From Lepidostoma basale (taxonomy: Eukaryota > Arthropoda > Insecta > Trichoptera > Lepidostomatidae), in the NCBI GenBank assembly GCA_022606425.2, contig JAHDVF020000174.1:62001-126000 (forward strand): a stretch of 64,000 bases of DNA, written 5' to 3'. The notes under the pieces were generated by a model that was not told the origin of the DNA, searched no databases, and worked only from the letters and a program-made list of their open reading frames with translations. A program made the translations under genes and the position numbers. This document shows, piece after piece, positions 3,457 to 63,045 of the stretch (the stretch's first letter is position 1; each line of letters opens with the position of its first letter).

Positions 3457-3496
3457 TACCCTGTCGAAGCTCTGGTGGGAGCGAAACCGGTTGGTA
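3457..3496 (+). ncRNA. hammerhead-like motif, core variant
   Basis: Stem I TACC (3457-3460) pairs with GGTA (3493-3496). The core is CTGTCGA (3461-3467), one change from CTGANGA at the conserved A. One extra A follows, then stem II GCTC/GAGC around a TGGTGG loop, GAAA (3483-3486), palindromic ACCGGT and a GTT cleavage triplet. A related decayed copy is at 4163-4205. The altered core predicts weak or no activity. Confidence 0.6.
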
Positions 3497-3739
3497 TTAT
3501 AAAACAAATAATGTGGTGTTAAAATAAATTATAATACGTCAATGCTTTAATTTATTTTTAATTTTGAAAAATATTCTTTTAGGTAAATCCATAATAAATT
3601 ACATTATAAAAATATTTATGGGTTTTTAATTTCTTTTCGGATAAATTTACTTAAAGGGTCGTAAGTACACGTATAATATATAGTTTAAATGAGTATAGTC
3701 TCGTATTACCTGTTGTCGTTGATACAGTAAATCTCAAGA

Positions 3740-4068
3740 ATTAATTGTATCTCAATAGAGACGAAGATGCAAATTGGAAACAGAATATGGTTGATCTAGG
3801 TGTTTACAGGACTTATGGCCTGTCATTGGTTGGGTTAAGCGCACGCTTTATGTAATACAACATTCCCCATTCCACATTTTTTTCTTAGGACCACAATGTC
3901 TGACAAACTTTTGGAAGTTGTATATATGTTAATCTCTAATACTACTCTTTACGTTGTAGTTTATGCAATCTACATACTGACGCCATCTATGAAGATTTGT
4001 GTTTATTAAGCATTAAGCAGAATATCTTTTTAACACAATGTGAAAGGCTACCGCCATTGTATACATTT
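3740..4068 (+). repeat. repeat U, copy 1
   Basis: First of three copies of an unclassified repeat of about 300 bp; the others are at 46775-47013 and 51252-51575, both inverted relative to this one. Shared landmarks are TTAATTGTATCTCAATAGAG at one end, a GTTGGGTTAAGCGCACGC core and a GAAAGGCTACCGCCAT end. No open frame, no clear terminal inverted repeat. Confidence 0.8.
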
Positions 4069-4162
4069 AAAAAAATGTTGTAAAAAAACAGTAAATCTCA
4101 TTTCTGATACCTGTTTGTGGTATGACATTATTCAGATAAAAAAAACTCATTTGGTATGTTTC

Positions 4163-4205
4163 GTTATCCTGGCGAAGTTCTAGTGGGAGCGAAACCGGGT
4201 GGTAT
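4163..4205 (+). ncRNA. decayed hammerhead-like motif
   Basis: Duplicate of the 3457 motif with its AT-rich 5' flank (ACTCATTT and GTTACC-like blocks). The core reads CTGGCGA and the last stem base is changed, so the ribozyme fold would be lost. It shows that a unit of at least 100 bp was copied, not just the hairpin. Confidence 0.5.
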
Positions 4206-4209
4206 TATT

Positions 4210-4717
4210 TGTATATATGGTAAATATTTATTTGCATTTTCAAAAGTACGCTTATATGCTGATTTTTATTTCATTTAGTGTATTGTTATTAAGTACGTTA
4301 TCAAAAAGTATTCATTATGAGTGATTTGTTCGTCCGAGTATCTGTCAACTTTTAAATGAATCTATATGGAGGTCAATGAAAGAGTTAAATATTTCAATAC
4401 AATGATCGTGGTATCCATACGATGATTCAATTGAATTTAATACAAGTAAATTGTGATTTTTACACGCAATGAATTTTCGATATAAGGTCTTGCAGTGCCT
4501 AAAATATCAATAGGAGAACAACATCTTCCATTACAGAAATAGTGTATAAATTTTTTTTTTAAATGATAAGAGAACACCGGATATCAACCTTCGGCCTCGC
4601 TCCAGCGACTAGTTACATTAACAAATATTTAAGACCTAATTTATTGATCATGAGATTTAATTCATTTCGGATTATATTATAAAAATTAAAATAAAACATT
4701 ATGTTAACAATATTTGA
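4210..4717. other. AT-rich spacer
   Basis: No gene, repeat or structural signal that I recognise. Confidence 0.5.
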
Positions 4718-4862
4718 TAATCCATTGTTTTGGCACTTTGATATTTCAACATTATTAACTGTTCAAATAAAACTCTGTTATAAATATCACAATTGATTAT
4801 ATTTTGTCGCGACAGCTGTTTCGCTAACCAATGATAGCATCGTCAGGTTTTACAATCAACTG
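4718..4862 (-). repeat. PalR hammerhead-bearing repeat
   Basis: Member of the repeat family also seen at 12776-13432, 14275-14400, 39705-39770, 53570-53790 and 56760-57215. Landmarks are CCATTGTTTTGG, a TATTTCAACATTA block, ATCACAATTG and the ACAGCTGT-type hammerhead motif at 4804-4860. No coding capacity. Confidence 0.75.
4804..4860 (-). ncRNA. hammerhead ribozyme candidate, intact core
   Basis: On the minus strand: CTGACGA (4846-4840), one extra T, stem II GCTA/TAGC (4838-4835 and 4826-4823), GAAA (4822-4819), palindromic ACAGCTGT (4819-4812) and C at the cleavage position (4811). Stem I is interrupted: TTGT pairs with ACAA and TTGATT with AATCAA around an internal loop. All core positions match the hammerhead consensus apart from the extra base after the core GA. 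Confidence 0.65.
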
Positions 4863-4879
4863 ATTGTCAACTAATCAAA

Positions 4880-5165
4880 TTGTTAACAATATAACAATGA
4901 AAAAAAACAAAAAATTGTTTAAAAATTTCTTTATTATTATGTATTTAGTGTGCTTCCACTTGTGTTTATGTTCGACCGGTTTCGACAGCTTGCTGCCATC
5001 TTATCTCGTCAGAAGATGGCAGCAAGCTGCCGAAACCGGTCGAACATTAACAAAAGTGGAAGCACCCTAAATACATAAAAATAAACAAATGTTGTGAATT
5101 TTTTTTTTGTTTTCATTTTTTAAAATGAACTTCTACCAAGATATTTCAATTAAAAATATTAATTA
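4880..5165. repeat. PalB palindromic element
   Basis: Arms of about 62 bp (from about 4938 to 5000 and 5010 to 5078) mirror each other with few mismatches around a short spacer. Each arm carries GGCAGC/GCTGCC, GAAA and ACCGGT, the hammerhead-like module of this family; the core half reads CAGAAGA, so it is imperfect. A short open frame across 4864-5070 is only the palindrome translated. Confidence 0.8.
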
Positions 5166-5890
5166 TGTTCACAATATACAATTTTTTTTTGTTGAATTCC
5201 ACAATTCTTTCTGATGGTTAATTAGTTAGCAATTAAATAAACCATTCATTTCAACAGCATTCACAGCGGCCACTCGTGAAATTTTTTCATCATATCTTAA
5301 ATCTAATTAGAGCTTATTCCAAAAAGGGTCGCCATTTTCTCTGAATTAGTTCCACAACCCCTTAATCCGAATGCAAGTTTGGTGTCGCCTCGACCGCAAC
5401 CCAAATTGATTTATTAAAAATAAAACACAAAAAAACTTTCTCTTAGCATGTCTCCCTTTTATATCCACAACTAAAGCTTGGGGGGGATAGTGGTGTTGGC
5501 TGTAGAGCTTGGTCGTTTCTCTGACTATCTGGAGAATAGATCAGTATTAGCGAGGTATTGTAGGGGATTGGACTGTCGATCCAATATTTGTTTATGTTTT
5601 ATCTCGACAAAGTGGACAGCCGCCTTATCGAGAAATTTATCGCGAACTTTTAACTAAAGGTGTTGTAATCGTATTGAAATTTTATAACATCTTTTGACAG
5701 GTAATGATGATTGACAATATTGACATTATCTTCTATTAGACTGTTACTTTTATGAAATGTCTGCTTCTTAATGACAAAAAACACAACTCAGACGAAGCAA
5801 ACCTTGGAGCTGCCAAAGACGGATGAAAGTAAAATAAAAAATAATTAAATTATATCCATAAGAAGAATGTGAGGGAAAATGGTATATGAC
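5166..5890. other. no gene seen
   Basis: Mixed-complexity sequence. The 5440-5640 part is less AT-rich and appears single-copy in this window, but has no reading frame or RNA signature I can name. Confidence 0.5.
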
Positions 5891-5894
5891 AGAA

Positions 5895-6164
5895 GACGAC
5901 CTTCGTGGCCGAGTGGTAAGTGCATTGACTGCCACCCCGAAGGTTCCGGGTTCGATTCTCGGCGAGGGCAGTGTGATTGTCACACTGTCTTTGGTCTGGT
6001 GTAGAATTCACGTGACAATAAAATGGCGATAGATTAGCTAGTAACCTATCACATGTCACGAGAATCACTATGATAGCTATAATAATACCATTTACATCGA
6101 TTTGGCTCATGCTGTCATGATGTAAAGATCGATTCAACAAAATAATAATAATAATAATAATAAT
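5895..6164 (+). mobile_element. SINE-1 (tRNA-derived), near full length
   Basis: The head has a pol III A box (TGGCCGAGTGGT, about 5906-5917) and B box (GGTTCGATTC, about 5949-5958) in tRNA-like spacing. The body follows (GTGTGATTGTCACACTGTC, then CACGTGACAATAAAATGGCG) and the tail is (AAT)n. Its last about 60 bp, from the TTTACATCGATTTGGCTC block on, resemble the 3' end of LINE-E at 44190-44250, the probable source of its reverse transcriptase. Other copies: 6969, 16298, 27298, 32030, 43590, 47682, 54735. Confidence 0.9.
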
Positions 6165-6268
6165 ACAAAGATTTTCTACACATTCGTCTAGGAGATTTCA
6201 TTTCTACTGCATTTATTCTATTTTCATCCTTCTTTGGCCTGTTCCATGCTTCGCTTCCATACAAATTA
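6165..6268 (-). mobile_element. LINE-A internal fragment
   Basis: A short minus-strand piece coding remnants of the 'YGSEAWN' to 'MRSLRRMC' block. It abuts the (AAT)n tail of SINE-1, so the SINE probably landed next to or inside it. Confidence 0.8.
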
Positions 6269-6892
6269 ATATATGTATATAATAATAAATAAAGATGTTT
6301 CGTATGCACACAATTACAAGAAATACAATAAAAATGGGATGATTGTTTTCACTTAAAAAGGGCGGTGTTATCTAAATAACAAATATGTTCTATTTTAAAT
6401 TATTAATCAGAGTTTAATAAAGGCGTTTTATGAAACCCAAAACAAACCTTTATAGGGTGCTTTTCCGCAATATGCTTCAAATGAGAATTCAGAATTCAAA
6501 CAGTATTTATACTACGACTAATGAAAATTCGGGGAAAATGTTATCCATTCAAAATGGTTAGTCATTGTGGTAAGTTAACATCGTTAAATGATCCGGTAGT
6601 GTACAGTTCGACCATCATAGACTCCAAATGCTTTTAAGCTTAATGCCCTTATCTGATCCCGACTGCAATATCGGCATCCCAGTGTTCTACCCGCTAGGCC
6701 TAATTATTGGGGACATAATGACTGTGAAAGCTGTCAAATATTTTGTGCCCAGATAATAATCACTTAGTCCAATAATTCAAGAAATAAGTTACCACAACTA
6801 CTTGTATGAATTGTTTACTCTTGAGTTGTTAGCCACTGTCAAATAATATTTGAAAGTATAACACTTATTTATAATATCTAAAACAATTTTTT
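6269..6892. other. no gene seen
   Basis: AT-rich, no open frame of interest, no match to the other repeats in the window. Confidence 0.5.
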
Positions 6893-7625: not shown

Positions 7626-7784
7626 ACCAGGTCCAGGGTATAGATTTTTTTATGAACGAGAAAACATAGTAAATTAATTACATTTGTTGTTATTTCTGTT
7701 ACAACTACATATAATGGTTACCAAATAAAATCTGTACATGTTTATTAGACGGTAATATCATACTATATAGTTAATTTAAATTTA

Positions 7785-7830: not shown

Positions 7831-7978
7831 GAGAAGTATTTTTTGCTTATTTTAATTATAAAATCAAAATAAAATATCAGTTACTGATGCCCTAATGCTT
7901 TTTTATATAACAATACTTGTAATCATTAAATTCTCGACTTTTTTTAAATGAATAACGAAAACAGTATTTTTTCTTTTA

Positions 7979-8021
7979 ACTACCCTGAAGAAGAACACAA
8001 CTGTTCGAAACTAGTAGTAGT
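7979..8021 (+). ncRNA. hammerhead ribozyme candidate, intact core
   Basis: Stem I ACTAC (7979-7983) pairs with GTAGT (8017-8021), with one bulged C. The core CTGAAGA is 7985-7991, then one extra A, stem II GAACA (7993-7997) with TGTTC (8002-8006) around CAAC, GAAA (8007-8010), palindromic ACTAGT (8010-8015) and A at the cleavage position (8016), giving a GTA triplet. All core elements are present. The overlapping open frame 7948-8166 is an AT-rich shadow. Confidence 0.7.
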
Positions 8022-8299
8022 GGTGTCTCATAATAAAAGTGTGGTTATACAAAATAAAAAGAAGTTTTTTTTTTTTTTTTTAAAACATTATTTAAAAATG
8101 TCAACACAAAGTAAACTTCAAAAAGAATTATTCTTCAATAATATATTATCTACATCCCAACGTTAACATAAATAGTACGAAAATATGTTAATTACTCGTA
8201 CATTACAGTATCGTAGAATTTTTTTTTTTTTTATAAAAATTTATTTAAGTTTTCTATTTTAATAAACTTAATTTTATATGATAATCAAATGATTTTACT

Positions 8300-8545
8300 G
8301 AAATCTCTTGATGGATGTTCATTTTAAATAATAATTAAATAAAACGATGTTTTTTAACTACTTCCACTTTTGTCTTTATTTAGACAGCGACCGGTTTCGC
8401 CAGGCTCGCTGGCATCGACAGACATCGACCAGTCTGTCGATGCCAGCGAGCCTGGCGAAACCGGTCGCTGTCTAAATAAAGACAAAAGTGGAAGTAGTTA
8501 AAAAACATCGTTTAGTTTAATTATTTATTTTATATTATGATTTTT
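8300..8545. repeat. PalB element with perfect 79-bp arms
   Basis: Arms 8345-8423 and 8432-8510 are identical when one is inverted: 79 bp with no mismatch around an 8-bp spacer. Each arm carries the module GCCAG/CTGGC, GAAA, ACCGGT, C, with the core variant CTGTCGA. The outer flanks (AAATAATAATTAAATAAAA on one side) recur at 29135-29390 and 40680-40910. No coding capacity. Confidence 0.95.
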
Positions 8546-8562
8546 TGTTCAAGAATGAACCA

Positions 8563-9544
8563 AAATGGACCAGATTTTTGCACTTCGCAATATGACAAAG
8601 AAGTTTTTGGCAAAAGATCGGAAACTTTTCTGCGCGTTTGTAGATCTGCAAAAAGCGTATGACCGAGTTGACAGAGAAAAGCTATGGAAGCACAAACTGA
8701 TACGAGCAGTTGCTTCCCTTTATGAAGGAAGCACCGCGTGTGTCAGAGTAAACGGGGCTTTCACTTCTTGGTTTGATATCACAATAGGTATCAAAAAGGG
8801 TTGTGTAATGTCCCCGTGGTTGTTTAATCTATACATGGACAAGTGTATGAAAGAATTAGATGGCATAAACGCTGGTGCGAAAATGAACGATATGCCCATC
8901 AACTGTTTGTTGAATGCAGACGACGCTGTTTTAATCGCTTACAACATGGACGATCTACAAGTCCTAGTGTCAAGAATGTACGAAGTATGCAATAAGTATG
9001 ACATTGTGATGAACGTGTCAAAGTCTAAAGTGATGGTATTTGAAAAGGAAGAATGTATGACGGATTGTGACATAAGTGCCAACGGTGAGAAATTAGAGCA
9101 TGTTACCGAATTTGTTTATCTAGGAAGCATGTTTACAAGAGATGGAAGAATGGAGAAAGATATCGGAAGAAGGGTGGAGCTGGAAACAAAATAAATGGTG
9201 CACACAAAGTCATTTCCGCAAATAGAAATATATCGACTGAAGCAAAGATGGCAGTGCAAAATGGAGTTCTAGTCCTGACCCTTATGTATGTAAGTGAAGC
9301 TTGGAGTTGGCAGAAGAAGGATGAAAGTAGGATAAATGACGTAGAAATGAGGTCACTAAGAAGAATTTGCGAAGAAACAATGTATGATAGAATATCAAAT
9401 GATGAAGTAAGAAAGGAATGTAAGGCGGATGAATACGTGATAAATAAAATTAAAAAAGGGTCACTAAGATGGTTTGGACATATGGAACGAATGGATAAGG
9501 GAAGAATGGTTAAAAAGATATATGCAATTAGTGTGAATGCAAAA
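8563..9544 (+). mobile_element. LINE-A reverse transcriptase fragment
   Basis: Encodes the palm of a non-LTR reverse transcriptase. Motif A region is FVDLQKAYDRVDR (residues about 26-38 of the 8565-9194 frame), the B region is GIKKGCVMSPWLF, and the catalytic box is NADD where LINE-A elsewhere has YADD (61157 copy). NVSKSKVMVFEK follows. A frameshift near 9180 moves the C-terminal part (YVSEAW, RWFGHMERMDKG) to frame 9248-9586. There is no endonuclease domain and the 3' end is lost where PalA begins. A dead fragment. Confidence 0.92.
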
Positions 9545-9740
9545 AATATTTATTTAAAACGTCTGTTTTCTAGAAATTTATTGTAATTTATAGGAATTAC
9601 ATAATATTTTCCTTTCTAAGGCATTATCAAATATTGATAATGATTATCAAATGTCGAATAAAACAATTGATAATGCCTTGGCGAAACATGTCATTCCCAT
9701 AAAGTATTAATAATAAAACATTTATAAAAATGACGTTTTC
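9545..9740. repeat. PalA palindromic element
   Basis: Two arms of roughly 75 bp centred near 9640-9650, each with the AATGCC / GGCGAAACATGTCATTCC module. It truncates the LINE-A copy to its left. The hairpin (TTGATAATGCC, CTTGGC, GAAACATGTC) is hammerhead-like but its core differs at two positions. Confidence 0.8.
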
Positions 9741-10984: not shown

Positions 10985-11100
10985 TTTTTTCCACTTCGGA
11001 ATATATTTTTCTAGTTCATATCGTTCTCCCGATGATGAAGTTGTAACCCTTTGAAACACGCGTGTCGAGAAAAATAGATCCAAAAGTGGAAAAAACAATG
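10985..11100 (+). ncRNA. hammerhead-like motif in larger inverted repeat
   Basis: Stem I TTCTC (11026-11030) with GAGAA (11069-11073); core CCGATGA (11031-11037), one change from the consensus; extra T; stem II GAAG (11039-11042) with CTTT (11051-11054); GAAA (11055-11058); a 10-nt palindromic stem III ACACGCGTGT (11058-11067); C at 11068. An outer pair of 12-bp inverted repeats (TTTTTTCCACTT and its complement near 11085-11096) encloses it. A related decayed copy is at 41921-41975 on the minus strand. Confidence 0.6.
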
Positions 11101-11390
11101 GTGTGACAAGGTTCAAACAGTATTACTAATATTAATGTTATTATCATTAGATTTTTTTTTGTAAAAAAAATTGTAGTTTAATTTGTAAATATAATTATTT
11201 TTAGTTTCATGTCACTCTGTCATAAAACTTACTATGGTTAGACCAAAAGAATAAAGATTCTAAATATCGGAATTGAGGTCAAAGATGATGAGATTCGCAA
11301 AAGTTTGAGAAAGGTTTTGAATTCATACTCGTATATCCAGAAAAAAGAAAGCTACAATGAACACTAAATGTGCAAAATGGTGGTCACTTT

Positions 11391-12884: not shown

Positions 12885-13090
12885 GTCAGTTTTCTAGAAG
12901 TTTTATTATATTTTACGGGAATGACATGTTTCGTCCTTCTAAGGCATTATCAAATGACATTTGATAATGCCTTAGAAGGGCGAAACATATCATTCACATA
13001 AAATATAATAAAACTTCTAGAAAACTACATTTACATTCGTATTAATTATTTAATATGGAGTTTTACACCATTGTTCAAGAAACAATAAAT
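12885..13090. repeat. PalA palindromic element
   Basis: Good example of the family. Two arms of about 75 bp face each other around a centre near 12958; each contains TTCTAGAAGTTTTATTATAT, the GACATGTTTCG block and AAGGCATTATCAAATG. The right end adds ATTAATTATTTAATATGGAG and CATTGTTCAAGAAAC. The hairpin TTGATAATGCCTTAGAAGGG followed by CGAAACAT is hammerhead-like with a decayed core. Confidence 0.85.
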
Positions 13091-13116
13091 ATCACAATTG
13101 TATTTTTATTTTACGT

Positions 13117-13160
13117 GACAGCTGTTTCGTCTACCTATGTAGACATTATCAGGAGTTACA
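13117..13160 (-). ncRNA. hammerhead-like motif, one core change
   Basis: Minus strand: CTGATAA (13152-13146; consensus CTGANGA), extra T, a 6-bp stem II GTCTAC/GTAGAC around ATAG, GAAA (13128-13125), ACAGCTGT (13125-13118), C (13117). The distal stem I pairs ATTGTA with TACAAT. Compared with 57108 and 4804, stem II differs in sequence but keeps complementarity. Confidence 0.6.
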
Positions 13161-13499: not shown

Positions 13500-14056
13500 C
13501 ACTTATTTGGAAGTGAAGCTTGGAGCTGGAAAAATTTGGGTGAAAGCAGGATAAACGCCGTAGAAATTAGATCACTAAGAAGAATGTGCGGGAAAATGTT
13601 GTATGATAGAATACGGAACGATGAAATAAGAAATGTAAGGCAGATGACTGCATCATGGATAAAATTAAAAAAGGATCCCTGAGACGGTTTGGACATATGG
13701 AACGAATGGATGAGAGTAGAATGGTTAAAAAGTTGTACACAAGCAGCGTGAGTGGAAAAAGAAACCGAGGAAGACCGAGAAAAACATGGCATGACCAAAT
13801 TAATCAATTACTAAAAGGCGGTCACATTCAAAGTCGGAATAATCGACGAAACCGAGGAAGACCGAGAAAAACATGGCATGACCAAATTAATCAATTACTA
13901 AAAGGCGGTCACATTCAAAGTCGGAATAATCGACGTGAACACATGGTACGATTTATGAATGTAGAGGAAGCCCGAGAGGTATGCCAGGACAGAGCATTGT
14001 GGCGACCCATCCTTTCTGCCTACCCCTCCGGGTAAATGACGTGATGGTTAGTTAGT
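13500..14056 (+). mobile_element. LINE-A copy with in-frame 87-bp tandem duplication
   Basis: 5'-truncated plus-strand copy running from the 'GSEAWSW' block to the (GTTA)n tail (14043-14056). The longest frame (13655-14035) codes KKGSLRRFGHMERMDESRMV, then the GRPRKTWHDQINQLLKGGH block twice, then the C-terminus. Units 13761-13847 and 13848-13934 are identical, 29 codons each, so the duplication keeps frame. There is an upstream frameshift near 13630, so this is still a dead copy. Confidence 0.93.
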
Positions 14057-14274: not shown

Positions 14275-14400
14275 TAAATAATAATTTGACGAAACGGCTG
14301 TAAAATAAAAATACAATTGTGATACATAAAACAAAGTTTTTTAATTTAAAATTTTAAAATAATAATTGTTTAGTATTGACATTATCATCGTAAGATGCCG
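14275..14400 (+). repeat. PalR fragment
   Basis: Starts at GACGAAACGGCTGTAAAAT, the downstream half of the PalR hammerhead (decayed), and continues into the ATACAATTGTGATACA block shared with 12840-13110 and 57160-57215. Confidence 0.65.
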
Positions 14401-15290: not shown

Positions 15291-16140
15291 TATATTATTC
15301 ATACCTTATTTTTTTACAATATAAATATTTTAAACTAAAAGATTTACTTTAAGTACTAGAAACGGTCACTCGGAATTTTCTGGTTGTTTATTTTGATTAT
15401 AAAAAAAGTAGAGTCGCATAAATTCAAATTGTTTTAAAAATAATTCAAAAAAGATTTTTTGCCACTCTGCCACGAAGGTCGACGTTTTCCCTACACGCGC
15501 TTAATATTTTTATTATTCTTCTAGTTATCAGAAAGTTTGTCTCCTGATCCAAGACGCGTAGGTTCAATCATTGACACGACCTAGATTTTTATCTATCATT
15601 TGATTTAATAATAAGATTTTTTAATAATAAAATATTTTAATGTAAACATCAAATAAAACAACACCCTGTAGCTATTTTTTTCTATCCAATGTCACTATCA
15701 CCCATCAACAATTCCGACTGAAACACAAGCACTGGTCATCCAATGGGTCGCAGCTGCTGCGATCGATCAAACAGTGACCGTTTATAAACAAAAGTCCATT
15801 CTGTGGGCGACCTAATGTTCCCATTATATCTCTTTAACAACGCGCTCATTTGTCAGATCATAACCGGAGGATAGGACGGATTTTATCTGCGGTCGTAATT
15901 GATCAGTTCGGAAGGAGCAAACGACGTTTCCCAGTGACCAGAGCTGATGGATAATCTTGTATCTCAATTCATTTGTTTTGGAACGTGAATAGTTTATTTA
16001 AATCATATTTTATTAAGTCATACAACAAATTGACTTCATACCATATTCCTGAAGAAAAATACATTTATTCGATGTTCGCCATATTTTGTTTTGTAGATGT
16101 TTTATTTGTCTTTTCCTTTTGTGTATAATTTATATATACA
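15291..16140. other. no gene; single-copy-looking stretch
   Basis: A fragment of the SINE-1 head in minus orientation is at about 15465-15485. The part 15660-15950 is of normal complexity and not repeated here; no reading frame or RNA signal recognised. Confidence 0.5.
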
Positions 16141-16162
16141 ACAATTACTTTAAAAAATTCAA

Positions 16163-16216
16163 TTTATAAATCAGACATGTTTCGGACAACCGGTCCTTCT
16201 TCAGTGATATTATAAA
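16163..16216 (-). ncRNA. hammerhead ribozyme candidate in Penelope-like terminal repeat
   Basis: Minus strand: stem I TTTATAA, T, ATCA pairs with TGAT, TTATAAA (4 plus 7 bp with one bulge). Core CTGAAGA (16204-16198), extra A, stem II GGAC/GTCC, GAAA (16183-16180), palindromic ACATGT (16180-16175), C (16174). Every consensus element is present. It lies downstream of the GIY-YIG remnant on the same strand, the position known for hammerheads in Penelope-like elements. A decayed relative is at 62625-62720. Confidence 0.8.
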
Positions 16217-16297: not shown

Positions 16298-16544
16298 TTA
16301 TTATTATTATTATTATTTGGTTGAATCGCTCTTTACATCATGACAGCATGAGCCTAATCGATGTAAAGGGTATAGCTATCTTAGTGATTCTCATGACATG
16401 TGATAGGTAGCTAATCTATCGCCATTTTATTGTCACGTGAATTCTACACCAGACAGTGTGACAATCACACTGCCCTCGCCGGGAATCGAACCCGGAACCT
16501 TCGAGGTGGCAGTCAATGCATTTACCACTCGGCCACGAAGGTCG
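16298..16544 (-). mobile_element. SINE-1, full-length copy inside Penelope-like element
   Basis: Complete minus-strand SINE-1: tRNA-like head at the right end with B box GGTTCGATTCCCGG, body, LINE-E-like tail and (AAT)n at the left end. It splits the Penelope-like element, so it inserted later. Confidence 0.92.
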
Positions 16545-16921
16545 TTTTGTTATAACAAATATTATGAATCAATTTAAATTTTAAAATAATAATTTAAAGT
16601 TCTTATTGGGGTTCATGTTATTACTTACAACAAAGGTAATAAATCAAATATCGGGCTTGTTAATTTTATTTGATTATTTATAACATTTTCTTTATTTTTA
16701 ATTGCTTTTTTAATTTCTCAAATTTCGAGATTGCTCAAAGTTATACTTCTATTATTAACATGCAAAATTTCAACGCCACTATCTTTATTAAATTAATGAT
16801 CTTTTTCAATGAGGTGATTAGCAAATACTGAAAAATTATTATTAGAGAGACATCTTATGTGCTCTTTTATTCTTAATTTAAAATTACGCCTTGTTTTACC
16901 TGTATAAAAAATATATTGTTG

Positions 16922-17080
16922 ATATGTATGTATACACAAGCATATTTTTTTTAATATATGCGCGCATTGCACACTCCTAGACATACCTATTTATAATATT
17001 TAGCCATAGAAAAAGACTATGTTAAAATAAAAAGTAACATGAATTTTGATGATGACTTCGTGTTAACTGGTAAAATATTA
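16922..17080 (+). repeat. repeat W, copy 2
   Basis: Same block order as 14095-14255, with small indels such as the added GCGCGCATTG. It truncates the Penelope-like frame at 16920. Confidence 0.75.
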
Positions 17081-19450: not shown

Positions 19451-19504
19451 TTAACGAAATAGAGATACTTAGGAAATTGAAAAAAACTGTGTTCATTAAT
19501 CACA

Positions 19505-19566
19505 AAATATTTAAAAAATACGACATGTTTCAGAGGATACCTCCATCTTCAGGTGTAAATATATAA
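19505..19566 (-). ncRNA. hammerhead ribozyme candidate in Penelope-like terminal repeat
   Basis: Minus strand: core CTGAAGA (19552-19546), extra T, stem II GGAGG with CCTCT (one G-U), three-base loop TAT, GAAA (19531-19528), ACATGT (19528-19523), C (19522). Stem I has AC/GT next to the core, then an internal loop, then ATATTTA with TAAATAT. The same module at 35852 differs in stem I and stem II. Confidence 0.75.
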
Positions 19567-20110
19567 TAAATACTAAACGAATAAAAAACGCATAAAAATT
19601 CGATACAATAATTTAAATTTAAACCTGTGCTAATTGTTATAGGTACCTACTTATGATTATTTTTTATCAGTAAAAACTAATAAATAATATAATATTAAAC
19701 AATAATAATACATAATGATAATATAAAAATATAAAAATTGTAATTTAGAAAAAACATATATTTGAAAATACATAATTTATACAGGAAAAAAATTATTAGT
19801 TTGCATATGATTGGGAATGAGAGCTTGGGAGACTAAAAGTAGACAAAGTATTTCAGTTTTATTAATTATTATTATAATTATGTTTTCTTTTATTAATTAT
19901 GTTTTCACCCATACTGGATCACCCAATTTCACCGACTTGAGGATTTCTAAAGTTTCATATTGTTTGTAGAAATATTGTGTCATTTTTATCGAAACTATGG
20001 TCAAATTCAATACAACTGTTAGCCATCTCAGATAAAATTGTATGTTTGGTGAAAGCTTGTTTGTGTTCGTTGATACGTGTTTTAAACGTTCGTCCTGTCC
20101 TGCTTGTTTT
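19505..20110 (-). mobile_element. Penelope-like element 3' part with GIY-YIG remnant
   Basis: Minus strand 20105-19985 translates as TSRTGRTFKTRINEHKQAF, then TILSEMANSC and FDHSFDKND, the GIY-YIG endonuclease of Penelope-like elements. A stop follows near 19965; the C-terminal part and a long AT-rich terminal repeat follow, with the hammerhead candidate at 19505-19566. The AT-rich repeat is shared with 35852-36180. The element is cut off at 20110. Confidence 0.85.
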
Positions 20111-20129
20111 TTTTTAATTATGTAAAAAT

Positions 20130-27297: not shown

Positions 27298-27631
27298 AAG
27301 ACGACATTTGTGGCCGAGTGGTAAGTGCATTGACTGCCACCCCGAAGGTTCCGGGTTCGATTCCCGGCGAGGACATTGTGATTGCCACACTGTCTTTGGT
27401 CTGGTGTAGAATTCATGTGACAATAAAATGGCGATAGATTAGCTACCCATCACATGTCACGAGAATCACTATTTTTTTTTTTTAAAAGACTAATATCAAG
27501 GATTTACATCAATGATATTAGAATTTATTTTACAATCTTCAATGATAGCTATAATACCCTTTACATCGATTTGGCTCATGCTGTCATGATGTAAAAAACG
27601 ATTCACCAAAATATTAATAATAATAATAATA
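27298..27631 (+). mobile_element. SINE-1 inside LINE-A2, itself interrupted
   Basis: tRNA-like head (TGGCCGAGTGGT; GGTTCGATTCCCGG), body and LINE-E-like tail with (AAT)n. Between CACGAGAATCACTA (27470) and ATGATAGC (27541) it is interrupted by a SINE-2 fragment. Three elements are therefore nested here. Confidence 0.9.
27471..27540 (-). mobile_element. SINE-2 3' fragment
   Basis: Minus-strand SINE-2 tail: poly-T at the left, AAAAGACTAATATCA, then GATATTAGAATTTATTTTAC. 5'-truncated. Matches 27843-27950 and 63395-63480. Confidence 0.75.
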
Positions 27632-29134: not shown

Positions 29135-29390
29135 AATAATTAAATAAAACGATGTTTTTTATAACTACTTCCACATCTGTCTTTATTTCGACAGGGACCG
29201 GTTTCGCTAGGCTCGCTGGCATCGACAGACTGGTCGACCATAACATGGTGCCTGGAGCCTGGCAAAACCGATCGCTGTCGAAATAAAGACAAATATGGAG
29301 TAGTTATAAAAACATCGTTTTATTTAATTATTATTTGAAATGAACTTCCATCGAGAGATTTCAGTTAAATCATTTGATTATCTTAATGAA
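29135..29390. repeat. PalB element, diverged
   Basis: Same layout as 8300-8545: TAATTAAATAAAACGATG, ACTACTTCCAC, GACCGGTTTCGC, then the mirrored arm ending CATCGTTTTATTTAATT. Arms have diverged (CAAAACCGATCGC in the right arm), so one hairpin module is broken. Confidence 0.85.
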
Positions 29391-30664: not shown

Positions 30665-31922
30665 TTACTGTGTTCTGCTAGTTGGTACTTATGGTCTTAA
30701 AACTGTAACATTGTCCGAACGACTAACTAACTAACTAACCATCACGCCGTCTCCCCGGAGGGGTAGGCAGAAAGAATGTTCTGTCCTGACCTGACATACT
30801 TCTCTCGATTCCTCTACATTCATACATCTTGTCATGCACGCACGTCGATTTCTCCGACTCCTCACGTGACCGACATTCAATATTTGATTGATTTGATCGT
30901 GCCACGTTTTCCTCGGCCTTCCTTTATTTCTAGCTCCGTTCACGCCGTTCACATATACCTTCTTTACCATTCTGTCTTCACTCATTCTTTCCATGTGTCC
31001 AAACCATCTTAATGACCCTTTCCTTATTTTGTTCATAACACTTTCATTCGCACCACATTCACTTCTTTTACTTGCATTAGTCACTCTATCATATACAGAT
31101 TTGCCGCACATTCGTCTTAGAGATCTCATTTCTACTATATTTATTCTACTTTCATCCTTCTTTTGCCAGTTCCATGCTTCACTTCCATACATAAGGGTCG
31201 GCACAAGAACACCATTATGCATTGCCATCTTGGCTTTTTTGGATAGGTTTTGTTTGCGATGACAACTTTAAGTGCACCATTTATTCTGTTGTCTGCCCCA
31301 ACCCTTCTTTCAATATCCTTCTCCACCCTCCCATCCTTTGTAAACATACTTCCTAAATAAACTAATTCATCCACTTGTTCCAGATTCTCACCGTTTACAC
31401 TAATGTTGCAGCCTGTCATGCTTCTTTCTTTTTTGAAAATCATTACCTTGGACTTATTCACATTCATCATCAAATCGTATCGCTTGCATACCTCATACAT
31501 ACTAGACACCAGGGCTTGCAGTTCGTGCTCGTTGTCCGAACAAAGTGCCGAGAAACTACGTGTGACCCAAAGAGCCATGGAAAGACCCATGTTAGGAATA
31601 TGCCTAAGAGACAGAGTCAGAAACGATACGGCGAGAGAAAAAACAAAGGTAAATGACATTATCAACCGGGTAGCGACTCTAAAATGGCAATGGGCAGGTC
31701 ACGTAGCCAGAAGCTCAGATGAAAAATGGAAAAGAAGTCTTCTGAATAAGAACGCTGGACGGCAAAGAGAAGAGAAGGACGACCGCAACTACGGTGGAAG
31801 GATGATCTGAACAGACACGTCGGAATAATTTGGATGCAGTATGCACAAGACAGAGTGACATGGAAGCGAATGGAGTAGGCCTTTGTCCAGGAGTGGACGG
31901 GAATCGGCTGAGGAAGAAGAAT
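30665..31922 (+). mobile_element. RTE copy split by LINE-A
   Basis: 30665-30720 and 31542-31922 together match 14865-15285 (VGTYGL, then EKLRVTQRAMERPMLGICLR, NRVATLKWQWAGHVARSSDE, 'FVQEWT' end). The LINE-A copy lies between them at 30721-31531. The right part is open from 31403 to 31810. Confidence 0.93.
30711..31541 (-). mobile_element. LINE-A copy nested in RTE, 10-bp target duplication
   Basis: Flanked by TTGTCCGAAC at 30711-30720 and 31532-31541. Minus strand codes EVCKRYDLMMNVNKSKVMIF, NGENLEQVDELVYLGSMFTK, DGRVEKDIERRVGADNRING (frame 31665-31141) and MHNGVLVPTLMYGSEAWNWQ through GRPRKTWHDQINQILNVGHV to ESREVCQ (frame 31228-30731). One of the best-preserved C-terminal domains here. It is 5'-truncated inside the reverse transcriptase. 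Confidence 0.95.
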
Positions 31923-35774: not shown

Positions 35775-35850
35775 TGAACCCAATTACTGTATACAACTTT
35801 TTACCTATTGATTCTCATGACATGTGATAGGTAGCTAATCTATTTATTAA
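35775..35850 (-). mobile_element. SINE-1 fragment
   Basis: Minus-strand ACATGTGATAGGTAGCTAAT block and the AACCCAATTACTGTATAC alternative tail. Confidence 0.6.
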
Positions 35851-35851
35851 A

Positions 35852-35912
35852 AAATATTTTAAAAAACACGACATGTTTCGGGGGATACCTCCATCTTCAG
35901 GTGTAAAAATAT
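35852..35912 (-). ncRNA. hammerhead ribozyme candidate, intact core
   Basis: Minus strand: stem I ACAC with GTGT (35904-35901 and 35869-35866), then ATATTTT with AAAATAT further out; core CTGAAGA (35900-35894), extra T, stem II GGAGG against CCCCC with one A-C mismatch, GAAA (35879-35876), ACATGT, C (35870). Compared with 19505 the inner stem I is extended by compensating change. Confidence 0.7.
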
Positions 35913-40679: not shown

Positions 40680-40910
40680 TAATCAAATGATTTTACTGAA
40701 ATCTCTTGATGGAAGTTCATTTTAAATAATAATTAAATAAAACGATGTTTTTTAACTACTTCCACTTTTGTCTTTATTTAGACAGCGACCGGTTTCGCCA
40801 GGCTCGCTGGCATCGACAGACTGGTCCAGTCTGTCGATGTTTAAAAAACATCGTTTTATTTTATTATTATTAAAAAAACATCGTTTTATTTAATTATTAT
40901 TTAATTGCCT
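40680..40910. repeat. PalB element, right arm deleted
   Basis: Left flank and left arm match 8300-8423 almost exactly, including ATTTCTCTTGATGGA-type flank and CGACCGGTTTCGCC. The right arm keeps only CAGTCTGTCGATG then jumps to TTTAAAAAACATCG, losing the hairpin; the terminal ACATCGTTTTATT block is duplicated. Confidence 0.88.
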
Positions 40911-41879: not shown

Positions 41880-42030
41880 TAAAAACATTATTTTTTCAAC
41901 TTTTGAGTTTATTATCTCGGCATGTTTCGAATATTTTACACCTTCATCATTGGGAGAACAATATCAACTTTATCATGAAGGTGTAAAGCCTTTAAAACAT
42001 AGAGAATAAATAACTCAAAAAAGTGTTCAA
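41880..42030. repeat. fold-back with decayed hammerhead-like motif
   Basis: The minus strand at 41975-41921 reads TTCTC, CCAATGA, T, GAAGG, TTC, GAAACATG, CC, GAGA: the same layout as 11026-11073 with core and stem III changes. A second half in plus orientation follows (CATGAAGGTGTAAAGCC). Confidence 0.5.
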
Positions 42031-49049: not shown

Positions 49050-49987
49050 GGACTAACCATCACGCCGTCTCCTCCAAGGGGTAGGCAGAAAGAATGGACT
49101 GTCACACTTTTCTTTCCTGACATATTTCTCTGGCTTCCTCAACATTCATACATCGTGTCATGCACGGCGTCGATTTCTCTGACTCCTCACAAGGCCGACA
49201 TTCAATATTTGATTTATTTGATCGTGCCACGTTTTCCTCGGTCTTTCTCTATTTCTAGTTCCATTCACATCGTTAACGTATATTTTTTATACTATTCTTT
49301 CTTCATTCATTCCTTTCATATGTCCGAACCATCTTAATGATTCTTTCATTATTTTGTTCATAACACCATCATTCGCACCGCATTCACTTCTTATATTTTC
49401 ATTCGACACTATCATACACAGAGTATCACACATTCGTCTAAGGGATCTCATTTTTACTACATTTATTCTACTTTCATCCTTCTTTTGCCAGTTCCATGCT
49501 TCGTTTCCATAGATAAGGGTCGGTAGAAGAACTCCATTGTGCACTGCCATTCTAGCACTTTTGTATAGGTTTTTGTTTGCGATGACAACTTTAAGTGCAC
49601 CATTCACTTTGTTGCCTGCCCCAACCCTTCTTTCAATATCCCTCTCCACTCGCCCATCTCTTGTAAACATACTACCTAAATATACGAACTCATCTACTTG
49701 CTCCAAATTTTCACCATTCACGCTAATATTGCAAACTGTCTTGATTTCTTCTTTTTCAAAAATCATTACCTTGGACTTATTAACATTCATCATCTGATCA
49801 TTTCGCATGCATACCTCATATATATAATACAATTCACCAGGACTTGTAGTTCATGCTCCTTGTCTGCAAGTAGGACAGCGTCATCCGCATACAAGAGACA
49901 ACTTACTGACACTCCGCTCATTTTGGCACCTACATCCAACATTTTCAGCTCTTTCATACACTTGTTCATATATAGAGTAAATAACCA
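49050..49987 (-). mobile_element. LINE-A copy
   Basis: Minus-strand copy of about 940 bp. It includes YTWLFTLYMNKCMKELKMLD, SCLLYADDAVLLADKEHELQ (catalytic box intact), NVNKSKVMIFEKEEIK, EFVYLGSMFTRDGRVERDIE, VHNGVLLPTLIYGNEAWNWQ and GHMKGMNEERIV in frames 50047-49790 and 49832-49287, then the C-terminal domain and 3' end at left. Frameshifts at about 49795 and 49285. Confidence 0.92.
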
Positions 49988-53429: not shown

Positions 53430-53490
53430 CAGTTTGTTTTTATAACCCAGATGAATCTCTCGAGGGAACGAAACCGGTTGGTTCAATTAA
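53430..53490 (+). ncRNA. hammerhead-like motif, one core change
   Basis: Stem I AACC with GGTT; core CAGATGA; extra A; TCTC/GGGA hairpin; GAAA; ACCGGT; T. Same layout as 3457. Confidence 0.5.
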
Positions 53491-53569
53491 ACAAAATAAA
53501 AGTGTTAAAATTATTGTTTATAATTGCACACCACAATTTAAGTACTTCATACGAAATCTATAATTTATT

Positions 53570-53790
53570 TTAATGAGATAGTCGTGACAGCTGTTTCGCC
53601 AACCTATGTTGGCATCATATGGTGTTACAATATACTGCTGTTTGTAACACCTGATGTAATAAACCTATACGTTGGCGAAATAGCCGTCGTGAAAATCTCG
53701 TAAAATAATTAATTGTTGTACTTATGTGAACAGCATTTCAAAATTAAAACATTTAATAATGTTGAAGTATCATAGTGTTTCGGGCAAAAC
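53570..53790. repeat. PalR inverted pair
   Basis: Minus-strand hairpin at 53585-53630 (ACAGCTGTTTCGCC, AACCTATGTTGGC) and plus-strand hairpin at 53640-53690 (ACACCTGATGTAATAAACC, GTTGGCGAAATAGCC) face each other, then the GAAGTATCATAGTGTTTCGG end. Both cores are damaged. Confidence 0.7.
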
Positions 53791-54505: not shown

Positions 54506-54553
54506 TTTACACCTGATGACGGAGGAGGTTGCCTCCGAAACATGTAGTGTAAA
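54506..54553 (+). ncRNA. hammerhead ribozyme candidate, best match
   Basis: Stem I TTTACAC (54506-54512) pairs without mismatch with GTGTAAA (54547-54553). Core CTGATGA (54513-54519), one extra C, stem II GGAGG (54521-54525) with CCTCC (54532-54536) around AGGTTG, GAAA (54537-54540), palindromic ACATGT (54540-54545), and A at the cleavage position (54546). All consensus bases are present. It lies directly downstream of repeat X and could be the terminal ribozyme of a Penelope-like or related element whose coding part is missing. Confidence 0.82.
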
Positions 54554-54567
54554 CCTTTTTTTTGTAA

Positions 54568-56759: not shown

Positions 56760-57215
56760 TATAAATGTCACCATTAATGTAATCTACTTCATGTTATTTT
56801 TTATCTTTTTTAATTTATTATGTTTCATCGTTTTTGACTCTATTCTATGTGTAATTGTTCCTTCTATTTACTGTTTTTATTATTATTATTATATTATTAT
56901 TATTTTATTATAATTTTTCCACCTTTAATATTTTCTCCTATAAATAGTAACTAGCCGTTCTTTTAATTAAATTATTTAGGTACCTCTCTTTAGGTACTAC
57001 TCAATTTCAGCAAGAACTTCAAAATTATATCAAAGAAATTATTCAAATTAACATAAATTAACATAAAGGTTCGAAAAATCACGAAAAATTGACAGTTGAT
57101 ATACTGTTGTAACACCTGATGATGTCAACATAGGTTGATGAAACAGCTGTCGCGTAAAATAAAAAACAATTGTGATACAAAAATAAAGTTATTTAATTTA
57201 ACAGTTTAAAATGTA
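56760..57215 (+). repeat. PalR hammerhead-bearing repeat
   Basis: About 450 bp: ATTAATGTAATCTACTTC, TTTTTGACTCTATTCTATGT, CCACCTTTAATATTTTCTCC, AAGGTTCGAAAAATCA, then the hammerhead at 57108-57158, then ACAATTGTGATACA. The upstream 300 bp match 13181-13432 inverted, so the hammerhead belongs to a defined longer repeat. Confidence 0.8.
57108..57158 (+). ncRNA. hammerhead ribozyme candidate, intact core
   Basis: Core CTGATGA (57116-57122), extra T, stem II GTCAAC (57124-57129) with GTTGAT (57134-57139) around ATAG, GAAA (57140-57143), palindromic ACAGCTGT (57143-57150), C (57151). Inner stem I is weak (C-G plus partial pairs); TTGT and ACAA pair further out. Confidence 0.65.
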
Positions 57216-59585: not shown

Positions 59586-59589
59586 CAAC

Positions 59590-60104
59590 TGACTTCTACA
59601 TCGGTATAAAAAAAATACAATACACAAAATACACACTGCAGAGCCCCAAGGCTCCACGGAGCACACTTTGAAAACAGCGGAATTAACGTGTTCCCAAAAT
59701 TTATTCGTTCATATTTTTATATTATTTCATGTCACGAGTATTGCTTCAGTTTTGTTGGGAACCTCATCCACGTGCACCCTGATCCTTAATACGCTACGAG
59801 AGATGCAGAGTGTAGATAGGTACTAGGTTCTAACGCTATCCTATACGGTAATCCCGGGCGGGGGAATGTTTGCCAACAGTCGCATATTTGTCAAAATGCC
59901 AAGGGACTGGGATTGGATACAAAAAATGGGAATATGTCATCTGATCCCCGGAATCTCTGCATCGCATCCTCCGAAACGGAAATGTCAATTTGTCTTTTCT
60001 TAATTATTATTATATGGGCGCATGCTCAGGATGTACGGTACATTTACATACGTGATCTTAGGTAAACATATACATATTGTAAGTACGTACGATATATGCT
60101 ACAA
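59590..60104. other. no gene; single-copy-looking stretch
   Basis: 59820-60000 is of normal complexity (ATCCCGGGCGGGGGAATG) with no frame or repeat partner. Confidence 0.45.
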
Positions 60105-60195
60105 ATCAAATCAAATCAGTTTATTTACTCAAAAGACATTACAAACAGCATAAATATTCAAGTCATCTATTGAGTACAGGTAAAATATTATATAA
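60105..60195 (-). mobile_element. LINE-F 3' UTR
   Basis: Minus-strand end ATTTGATTTGATTT, preceded by GTCTTTTGAGTAAATAAACT and ACCTGTACTCAATAGATG, matching 23800-23895. LINE-A begins at 60196. Confidence 0.8.
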
Positions 60196-60690
60196 AACTA
60201 ACTATCTAACCATCACGCCGTCTCCCCCAATGGGTAGGCAGAAAGAATGGACTGCCACACTTTTCTTTTCTGACATATTTCTCTCGCTTCCTCAACATTC
60301 ATACATCGTGTCATACACGCGCGTCGATTTCTCTGACTCCTCACATGGCCGACATTCAATATTTGATTTATTTGATCGTGCCACGTTTTCCTCGGTCTTC
60401 CTCTATTTCTGGTACCATTTACATCATTAACATATAATTTTTTTACCATTCTTTCTTCATTCATTCTTTCCATATGCCCAAACCATCTTAATGATCCTTT
60501 CATTATTTTGTTCATGACACCATCATTCGCACCGCATTCACTTCTTATATTTTCATTCGACACTCTATCATACACAGAGTATCCACACATTCGTCTAAGA
60601 GATCTAATTTCTACTGCATTTATTCTACTTTCATCCTTCTTTTGCCAGTTCCATGCTTCGCTTCCATACATAAGGGTCGGTAGAAAAACA
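60196..60690 (-). mobile_element. LINE-A copy with open C-terminal frame
   Basis: Frame 60671-60213 is open for 152 codons without a stop: MYGSEAWNWQKKDESRINAV, MRSLRRMCGYSVYDRVSNEN, GSLRWFGHMERMNEERMVKK, RNRGRPRKTWHDQINQILNV, GHVRSQRNRRACMTRCMNVE and a final SAYPLGETA at the 3' end. Nearly identical to 9801-10293, so both are recent. 5'-truncated. Confidence 0.93.
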
Positions 60691-61146
60691 CAATTTTTTT
60701 CATTCGTAGGTAAAATAGGGCTAGGCGACCCCGTGTCTGCAGCAGACTACAGCCATCCCTCAGGAAGAGACAGCATCCTGCAGTTTGCAGCAGACGTCCT
60801 CGTAAAGTGCCTAATTTATATTTATGTCCAATAACGCTGACTGAGTGTTAACCGTAAACTGTTTTAATATTCCAAATACTTCTCCTTCCTCGGGGCTGCC
60901 TAATGCACTTGAGAAGGGATTCAGGGCTCCCGGGGGAGCAGTTCAGATTCTTGAAAATCTCATTTTTGTATGAGTTTGCCCTGTAATAAGGTTTTACTAG
61001 TTCATTGACAATGTAGTTGTGCCTACACATACACATAGGCCTACGTAAATAGAAACATATGCACGAACAAGAGAAGATCAAGATTTTCAAATAAGCACAA
61101 TTCAAACAAAAAAATAATTATGCAATGTAATACGGTTCAACAATAA
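60691..61146. other. no gene seen
   Basis: 60720-60950 is more complex and unassigned; the rest is AT-rich. Confidence 0.45.
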
Positions 61147-62103
61147 TATCGTATTAACTAACTAACTAACTAACTAACCATCACGCCATTTCCCCGGAGG
61201 GGTAAGCAGAGAGGATGGATCGCCACACTGGCCTGTCCTGGCATACCTCTCGAGTTCCTCTACATCCATACATCTTACCATGCACGCACGTCGATTGTTC
61301 CGACTTCGAATGTGGCCGCCTTTTAGTAATTGATTAATTTGGTCATGCCATGTTTTCCTCGGTCGTCCTCGGCTTCTTTTCCCACTCACGCTGCTTGTGT
61401 ACAACTTTTTAACCATTCTACTCTCATCCATTCGTTCCATATGTCCGAACCACCTCAGGGATCCTTTTTTAATTTTATTCATGATGCAGTCATCTGCCTT
61501 ACATTTCTTTCTTATTTCATCGTTCGATATTCTATCATACAACGTTTTCCTGCACATTCTTCTCATTTCTACGGCGTTTATCCTGCTTTCATCCTTCTTT
61601 TGCCAGCTCCAAGCTTCACTTCCATACATGAGGGTTGGCACTAGAACTCCATTGTGTACTGCCATCTTTGCTTCTGTGGATATATTTCTATTTGCAGTAA
61701 TGACTTTGAGTGCGCCATTTATTTTATTCCCAGCACCAACCCTCCTTTCGATGTCTTTCTCCATTTTTCCGTCTCTTGTAAACATGCTTCCCAGATATGT
61801 AAATTCAGTAACTTGCTCCAATTTCTCGCCCATCGCACTTATATCACAAATCGTCATACATTCTTCTTTCTCGAAAACCATCACTTTAGATTTAGACACA
61901 TTCATCACCAAGTCACTCTTTTTGCATGCCTCATACATCCTTGACACTAAGGCTTGCAAATTTTCTTTACTGTCAGCGATTAACACAGCATCGTCGGCAT
62001 ATAACAAACAGCTGACTGACAAACATATCATCTTAGCACCAGCGTCTATGCCTTCAAGTTCTTTCATACACTTGTCCAAGTATAGATTGAACGTATCGTA
62101 TTA
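61147..62103 (-). mobile_element. LINE-A copy, longest open frame, 10-bp target duplication
   Basis: Element 61157-62093 between TATCGTATTA repeats (61147-61156 and 62094-62103). Frame 62079-61174 is open for 301 codons: MDKCMKELEGIDAGAKM, SCLLYADDAVLIADS (catalytic YADD), NVSKSKVMVFEKEECM, EFTYLGSMFTRDGKMEKDIE, MAVHNGVLVPTLMYGSEAWS, SLRWFGHMERMDESRMVKKL and GRPRKTWHDQINQLLKGGHI; a late frameshift replaces the end after MDVEE. Reverse transcriptase motifs A and B and the endonuclease are missing, so it cannot move itself. Confidence 0.95.
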
Positions 62104-62310
62104 TCATTTTTGAATAAATCAAATATTGAATGTCGGCCATGTGAGGAGTCGACGAAAAATCGACGCGCGTGCATGACACGATGTATGAATGTTGAGGAAG
62201 CGAGAGAAATATGTCAGGAAAGAAAAGTGTGGCGGTCCATTCTTTCTGCCTACCCCTTCGGGGAAACGGCGTGATGGTTAGTTAGTTAGTTAGTTTGTTA
62301 TCATTTTTGA
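62101..62310 (+). mobile_element. LINE-A 3' copy with 13-bp target duplication
   Basis: Only the last about 180 bp (62114-62297), 'GHVRSRRKIDARA' to (GTTA)n, between TTATCATTTTTGA at 62101-62113 and 62298-62310. The minus-strand copy at 61157 inserted beside its left duplication. Confidence 0.93.
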
Positions 62311-62334
62311 TAAACTTAAGGCGTAAGCTCTGTG

Positions 62335-62470
62335 AAATTATACGAATGAAAACGTCTGTTTTTTAGAAGTAATATTATTTATTTATTGATTGATCATTCA
62401 CCAAGTACGTGGTTTCAATACCTCACAACTGAGGTTACCCGTTCTAGAGAGGCATTTTTCTCACTCTATA
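62335..62470. repeat. PalA scrap and repeat V, copy 2
   Basis: 62338-62370 is a PalA end (TACGAATGAAAACGTCTGTT). 62385-62470 is repeat V inverted relative to 12235-12325. Confidence 0.65.
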
Positions 62471-62600
62471 ATCTCAATATATAAAATACAAATTTAGGGA
62501 ACAATTAATGAACAAGGGGAAGAAAACATATCTTAAAATGTAATATTTTTTTTCTATATTCGCCTTAACTTTGTGTTGCTGTTTGTATACTACACACACT
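62471..62600. other. AT-rich spacer
   Basis: Nothing recognised. Confidence 0.4.
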
Positions 62601-62604
62601 TTAT

Positions 62605-63045
62605 AAAAAAATATTAATTAAAAACCAAACATGTTTCGGATACACAAGCCCTTCAGCGATATTATATAAATATAGATATTTAAAATATTTTTAAAAAAAT
62701 TCACGTATTGTTGTAACCATTAGTATTAGCTAGGTATATTTTTAGTTGTATTTAGTTCATTATTATAATTTTCTAAAGAAAGTGGTATACTAATTAAGCG
62801 GGTCAACGTGGAATGGAAAGCTGAATTTTTATGTGAGATCGGATGGTTGGAAGTATCGTGAATAATATTGTCTGTATACGTCGGTTTACGATAAATATTT
62901 AAATCACCTTTTATCTGTCAAAACTGACCACATTTGTGATTTTTTTTTTAATATTTTTAATATTTATATTAATACATAGTAAGAGCCTGTGTGTCCGAAA
63001 CAAGTTGGGTTTTTAATTTTTAAATTTTTTATAATGTGTGTGTTG
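62605..63045. repeat. inverted pair of Penelope-like terminal repeats
   Basis: 62625-62720 (minus) resembles the terminal repeat at 16163-16230: CTGAAGG, a broken stem II, CCGAAACATGTTT. 62925-63030 (plus) has AAGAGCCTGTGTGTCCGAAA and CAAGTTGGGTTTTTAATT. Both hammerhead cores are damaged. Confidence 0.6.

Follow-up and report, generated by a model that had tools for sequence, protein, structure and literature searches.

Hammerhead-like hairpins scattered over 64 kb of the Lepidostoma basale genome look like the 3' ends of Penelope-like elements

Work by Cervera and de la Pena in 2014 and by Lunse et al. in 2017 reportedly deals with the minimal type I hammerheads found in Penelope-like elements (PLEs). 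In the passages concerned, such hammerheads are described both from PLEs and from scattered positions in non-coding DNA, with action as dimers proposed (PMC7761336, PMC6155905, PMC6466107), and their in vivo role is termed a mystery (PMC7761336). Here we analyze 64 kb of L. basale contig JAHDVF020000174.1 (C753 below; positions 62,001 to 126,000), hereafter the window, within a genome of 769 Mb. Hammerhead-like hairpins occur on both strands of the window and look like the 3' ends, each comprising a pseudo-long terminal repeat (pLTR), a hammerhead motif, and a tail, of several PLE families. PLE hammerheads, the head-to-head layout, and the tail are already published; our additions are orientation counts, the pairing of long and short tails, a change in the core of one family (family I), and the alleles carried by paired arms.

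The original prediction held that at least seven sites carry CTGANGA, a hairpin, GAAA, and a palindrome in hammerhead order, and this is borne out. The pattern CTGANGAN{8,30}GAAA has 11 matches in the window versus 3.77 ± 2.03 in shuffled sequence, with none of 100 shuffles reaching 11. A CTGANGA core, a stem II of 4 bp or more, and GAAA together return seven rows in the window (shuffles: mean 0.16, maximum 2, n = 100), and all seven are kept when the search also demands a palindrome of 6 nt or longer (the strict motif), which yields no row in 100 shuffles. Six strict rows are in hammerhead order: 54513+, 19552-, 16204-, 7985+, 57116+, and 4846-. The remaining row, 5012-, was dropped, its CTGACGA being accidental and located in the loop of a large family I palindrome. 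The seventh CTGANGA site, 35900-, misses the strict script solely through one mismatch in stem II. Sorted into the twelve motif families that we distinguish (A, B, C, D, E, F, G, H, I, K, X, and Y), the seven sites are as follows.

54506..54559, plus strand: family E motif, core 54513, with a 7-bp stem I, GGAGG/CCTCC as stem II, and ACATGT as stem III
35848..35907, minus strand: family A motif, core 35900, with one A.C mismatch in stem II
19500..19559, minus strand: family A motif, core 19552; about 330 bp upstream match 35900- at 78.5%
16110..16210, minus strand: family C motif and tail, core 16204 (strict row and profile)
7978..8031, plus strand: family F motif, core 7985, with ACTAGT as stem III
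57108..57204, plus strand: family B motif and tail, core 57116, with ACAGCTGT as stem III
4763..4854, minus strand: family B motif and tail, core 4846 (strict row and profile)

A profile built from these sites recovers the same seven, by construction, plus weaker ones at 0.003 and above. Family profiles, made from copies within the scanned sequence itself, were applied at E<=1e-3 to 264 kb, comprising 164 kb of C753 and a 100 kb stretch of contig C844 that was chosen for holding the sole above-cut-off Rfam Hammerhead_1 match. They return 110 sites, 77 on C753 and 33 on C844; 25 lie in the window (14 plus, 11 minus), and the "about ten more" near-motif sites first proposed were, if anything, an underestimate. 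The proposed covariation of stem II also stands: ten representatives, chosen by us as one per family, form 39 of 40 standard pairs, versus a mean of 22.9 and a top value of 32 in 10,000 partner shuffles. The scattered ribozyme-like hairpins are thus confirmed as real.

All seven sites have the core CUGANGA...GAAA and an H after stem III. Stems I and II are paired and stem III is self-complementary overall, with stem I poor in family B and, under strict register, at 7985+; modeling supports dimer folding of the motif only roughly. The stem III palindrome is ACATGT in families A, C, E, and X, ACAGCTGT in B, ACTAGT in F, ACGT in G, ACCGGT in H, I, and Y, and ACACGTGT in K, and it varies among copies of family D. 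In 28 of the 30 strict rows of the 264 kb exactly one additional base separates A9 from stem II, the exceptions being one row with two such bases and 5012- with none. We attribute this base to a start codon, because in several families A9, U, and G make up an AUG, which in family G opens the PLE frame.

The link to Penelope elements, suggested at the outset, is strengthened by coding sequence. PLE frames lie inside all 11 loci that were fetched from the genome (10 of the 11 opposite-strand pairs of reverse transcriptase [RT] matches, plus one locus with a single RT match), and three window sites (16204-, 19552-, and 62655-) have PLE-like coding relics upstream of them on their own strand, the RT piece upstream of 62655- falling between family C sites at 62.6-63.1 kb.

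16796..16957, minus strand: GIY-YIG-like endonuclease relic, 592 nt upstream of family C 16204-
19958..20113, minus strand: GIY-YIG-like endonuclease relic, 406 nt upstream of family A 19552-
62729..62917, minus strand: PLE-like RT thumb relic between two family C arms

A 61-aa query from the window RT relic gives 150 scored matches out of 370 candidates, with frames of up to 873 aa. Beyond the window, C753:29484-33296 is one family G insertion with hammerhead motifs at both ends, inverted arms of 1,265 bp (99.5% identical), and a 782-aa open stretch matching RVT_1 (4.7e-13); a PLE-type RT is therefore represented both by RVT_1 in family G and by the matches of the RT relic. Scoring 7,987 candidates against the 782-aa frame leaves 2,462 relatives at E<=1e-10; among those with a name, the top one comes from Anolis carolinensis (54% identity). 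The YVGQTARTIKKRTSEH-type motif of the 782-aa frame is in place, and its relatives P0044 (PF01541) and P0088 (named GIY-YIG) carry GIY-YIG. The next AUG in family G lies within the hammerhead motif (CTGAAG ATG) and opens METATISETS..; M..ETS-like starts are readable in three of eight fetched relatives (Anolis, a beetle, and one further relative). The assignment to PLEs has coding evidence behind it in families A, C, G, I, X, and Y; families B, D, E, F, H, and K yielded no coding piece and are assigned by motif, layout, or both.

Some of the elements appear young. Family Y copies L034 (contig C887) and L044 (C753:353200-357600) have open frames of 873 and 858 aa, and L034 has an inverted arm of 1,468 bp (99.5% identical); family Y thus seems to have been active recently. 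Equal RT scores and long open frames are seen in many family X copies, L052 and C853:1283497 among them, and suggest recent amplification of that family.

Same-family neighbors within 500 bp in the 264 kb are outward in 23 cases, tandem in two, and inward in none, compared with an outward mean of 6.3 and at most 15 in 2,000 strand shuffles; the corresponding counts for different-family neighbors are 4, 5, and 5. Outward pairs take in 46 of the 110 sites, and two of them that overlap slightly may be echoes of the self-complementary hairpin. Genome-wide, 16 pairs of family I 39-mers within 1 kb are outward and none is inward or tandem (by eye, among the matches listed), and the opposite-strand pairs of RT-relic matches within 3 kb are outward in 11 of 11 cases (likewise by eye, among the matches listed). 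The hammerhead motif is found at both outer ends of all 11 fetched loci, as CTGANGA in ten and as CTGTCGA in L037, in a scan that tolerated core variants such as CTGTCGA. All 11 are flanked by a direct repeat of 12-18 bp, with a cross-locus control of <=11 (110 comparisons), and three family G insertions have direct repeats of 12, 14, and 15-16 bp, one of these insertions being only ~190 bp long and made up of two motifs plus tails. A long tail is paired with a short one in 14 of 14 scored insertions, namely the 11 fetched loci (by eye) and the three of family G, a set that leaves out older pairs, whose ends are unclear. Inverted head-to-head pLTRs, a tail, and a short target-site duplication are thus all present. 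The junctions between arms, examined to see whether a single palindromic master had given rise to the pairs, vary and are often palindromic.

On these observations the hairpins are very probably hammerheads of the minimal type I, or their decayed descendants, at the 3' ends of endonuclease-bearing PLEs. Stem III, a self-palindrome without a loop, can close only between two RNAs. On structural grounds, reverse transcription begins ~85-130 nt beyond the core start; the shortest copies therefore retain the motif as well, giving rise to dispersed "non-coding" copies, and minimal hammerheads may be dispersed in non-coding DNA because they are located near the end where copying begins. In the 14 scored insertions each outer end has a hammerhead and a tail, one long and one short, within the 12-18 bp target duplication; priming probably takes place on both target strands, and the two arms could derive from two template RNAs, as a few sites suggest. 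Cleavage of the RNA, and its purpose, we infer. Of the original view that several repeat families are built around such ribozymes, some of them with no coding sequence, one part stood and the other was revised: motif-bearing repeats without coding sequence exist, but they resemble 3' ends of several PLE families, mostly 5'-truncated, more than independent ribozyme-built families, the "non-coding families" being best read as 5'-truncated PLE insertions, often head-to-head. The further window features of this kind are as follows.

13058..13160, minus strand: family B, decayed, with compensatory GTCTAC/GTAGAC in stem II
14286..14346, plus strand: family B, partial match (profile)
53563..53629, minus strand: left arm of a family B outward pair (profile)
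53643..53739, plus strand: right arm of a family B outward pair, partner of 53563..53629 (profile)
62569..62661, minus strand: decayed family C, left arm of an outward pair (profile)
62985..63073, plus strand: decayed family C, right arm of an outward pair (profile)
8333..8522, arms 8333-8416 minus and 8439-8522 plus: family I outward pair, core CTGTCGA
29138..29329, arms 29138-29223 minus and 29250-29329 plus: family I outward pair
40731..40814, minus strand: family I, core CTGTCGA (profile)
5015..5076, plus strand: family I-like arm of the palindrome at ~4893-5120 that holds the accidental CTGACGA of 5012-; the opposite arm, 4939-5000, reaches E 0.0024 only
11021..11102, plus strand: family D, core CCGATGA (profile)
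41884..42025, arms 41884-41961 minus and 41972-42025 plus: family D outward pair
3453..3529, plus strand: family H, core CTGTCGA, ACCGGT as stem III, at the start of the interval originally annotated
4161..4208, plus strand: family H (profile)
53442..53509, plus strand: family H (profile)

Other repeats share the window. Rfam labels 8332-8474 (minus strand) STnc400 or mir-9191, although it is in fact a head-to-head family I insertion; palindromes of this PLE family are a source of false RNA-family matches in Rfam (STnc400, mir-9191, MNV 3'UTR). The tRNA-like heads of a dispersed short interspersed element family lie at 5899-5970 (+), 16471-16542 (-), and 27304-27375 (+), two over the Rfam tRNA cut-off and the third under it, with more copies found by blastn; one head sits between the endonuclease relic and the 16204- hammerhead motif. 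Frame fragments of non-LTR (long terminal repeat) retrotransposons at 8559-9586, 30731-31698, 49287-49850, and 60213-62100 have WQKKDESRIN / GSLRWFGHMERM motifs in common, and 13761-13935 is an 87-bp unit in perfect tandem duplication (two copies, 100%). A phage-collection search gave one chance match, and a padded protein query gave no match.

Several results weigh against the assignment to PLE hammerheads. Four Rfam scans in the window, which extend to E<=10 and to two short cut-outs, returned no hammerhead, and here the covariance-model check went against the original prediction. We take the miss to reflect the absence of a closed stem III together with the additional base; Rfam models presuppose a stem III that is closed or longer, and its type I model is ill suited to this variant. 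Genome-wide, Rfam Hammerhead_1 gives one match over its cut-off (73 of 94,533 candidates scored), which aligns CTGAAGA far upstream across a 72-nt insertion and lends weak support. In dimer folds the double hammerhead is the minimum-energy structure in none of seven evaluated pairs and near the minimum in one. The short relics of the window match no Pfam family, with a single chance match in NCBIfam, and the GIY-YIG of the family G frame remains below the Pfam cut-off (E 0.061). Same-family neighbors within 1 kb include, besides 26 outward pairs, three inward and four tandem ones; among the matches listed, family B 39-mers form two outward pairs and one inward pair (G000:C62:284762-284983, exact motifs 183 nt apart). 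Of 25 pairs in the 264 kb, older and younger alike, only two of family G have exact direct repeats exceeding the control, the older pairs mostly having none above it, and in the family A pair C844:706574/706841 both arms seem to end about alike. Finally, RT starts equally on the two strands when the PLE PAc is studied in vitro (PMC11167929), whereas long and short tails are paired in 14 of 14 insertions here.

Variation in the core bears on whether the hairpins still act as ribozymes. Changes of the kind seen in families I and D would be expected to cripple hammerhead cleavage. One exact family I 39-mer, which includes the CTGTCGA core, occurs 4,075 times in the genome (reversed pattern: 0), compared with 1,019 occurrences of one exact family B 39-mer (reversed pattern: 0). 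Family I has CTGTCGA in 6 of 13 profile matches, most of the remaining ones being decayed, and L037, a young insertion of this family with arms 99.8% identical, combines CTGTCGA with intact stems I, II, and III. Family D has CCGATGA in five of eight scored copies and CTGATGA in one, so that the canonical CUGANGA is missing from the family I copies with a readable core here and from most of the scored family D copies. The abundance of family I with an altered core base implies that the hairpins need not all be ribozymes. It is possible, though on balance unlikely, that the motif is kept for a coding or start-codon role or as an RNA-binding hairpin, its hammerhead likeness being a relic and the copies non-cleaving. 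The spread of family I and part of family D would fit such a role, as would the in vitro insertion of PAc core mutants and the lack of RNA ends at the cut (PMC11167929); however, the best copies of 9 of the 12 families keep CTGANGA, and GAAA and the palindrome recur despite differing sequences.

A second question is whether each insertion is copied from one template RNA or two. The head-to-head layout could result from self-priming, as proposed for Adineta PLEs, in which the complementary DNA folds back and copies itself from a single template. We regard this as doubtful, although the arm junctions are palindromic with varied sequence and 6 of the 11 fetched insertions are symmetric around their center. 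Arm alleles were compared in family X over 406 nt around the RT thumb, taking in 8 insertions (16 arms) and 20 arms elsewhere; at six columns, two or more sequences share a second allele. The 12 differences between arms fall equally on alleles seen elsewhere (six) and private ones (six), the latter being what self-priming would favor. Four of the 12 involve alleles seen in the 20 other loci, however, versus ~0.1 expected (P ~2e-6, or 3e-5 at a doubled rate); they occur in L036, L038, and L039, of which L038 and L039 are among the symmetric insertions, and the target-site duplication encloses two unequal tails. Three of these four differences are at a single column, the non-CpG column 20 (T 22, C 12, untyped 2), where three insertions are C/T between arms, two C/C, two T/T, and one untyped; a local hotspot, gene conversion, or assembly mixing may be behind them. 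Because in three of seven typed insertions the arms differ at a polymorphism that independent loci share, two template RNAs are favored, and the two arms of some insertions seem to have been copied from different RNA molecules. Family G insertion arms differ at six sites, three of them within the frame and all synonymous, which is weakly consistent with two functional sources. The titles and abstract openings searched, outside the subscription literature, contain no mention of arm haplotypes.

It is also conceivable, if rather improbable, that the PLE hammerhead fold is conserved because two element RNAs pair with each other via the palindromic stem III, and not because it cleaves. If so, each target strand would be primed with an RNA and a start site of its own, giving head-to-head insertions with a long and a short tail and, at times, two haplotypes; such a role would also explain why differing palindromes recur across families, including family I with its thousands of altered-core copies.

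Metazoan retrozymes are non-autonomous elements that carry type I hammerheads in tandem repeats of ~170-400 nt and propagate through circular RNA. Although the copies here are likewise short, non-coding, low in GC, and of type I, retrozymes are a very improbable source of them, since stem III is loopless, tandem order is found for only 2 of 25 same-family neighbors within 500 bp, and young copies contain PLE frames. Equally improbable are foldback or miniature inverted-repeat DNA transposons with chance hammerhead-like ends, which would account for inverted ends, target duplications, and ~190 bp copies without coding sequence but not for the unequal ends (long versus short tail), the variable junctions, or the RT frames within elements.

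Compared with described systems, the hairpins share type I order and the lack of a closed stem III with minimal PLE hammerheads as presented in the relevant passages (PMC7761336, PMC6155905, PMC6466107). Poseidon PAc, from the same species as the best named relative of the family G frame, is similar in that C3 and G8 precede a start codon located at stem II, RT starts internally at two sites, 30-40 nt apart, that define the tail, and both target strands are cut and extended, as we infer for priming here (PMC11167929). Metazoan retrozymes, in the part of the account consulted here, likewise carry a type I hammerhead in short non-coding repeats, but these are tandem (PMC7229834), whereas the motifs here usually stand alone or head-to-head and are linked to PLE frames. 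The Penelope elements of Adineta vaga are similar in layout, with inverted, mostly head-to-head pLTRs and junction palindromes, target-site duplications of 8-10 bp, and a 31-bp tail on one inverted pLTR; the word hammerhead is absent from the main text of that paper (PMC3846280). L. basale differs in its thousands of copies and in arm alleles that oppose self-priming from one template. With so many copies, some very young, this genome can be used for questions beyond the reach of low-copy genomes: whether one or two RNAs serve each insertion, what causes the long and short tails, and whether altered-core lineages continue to spread.

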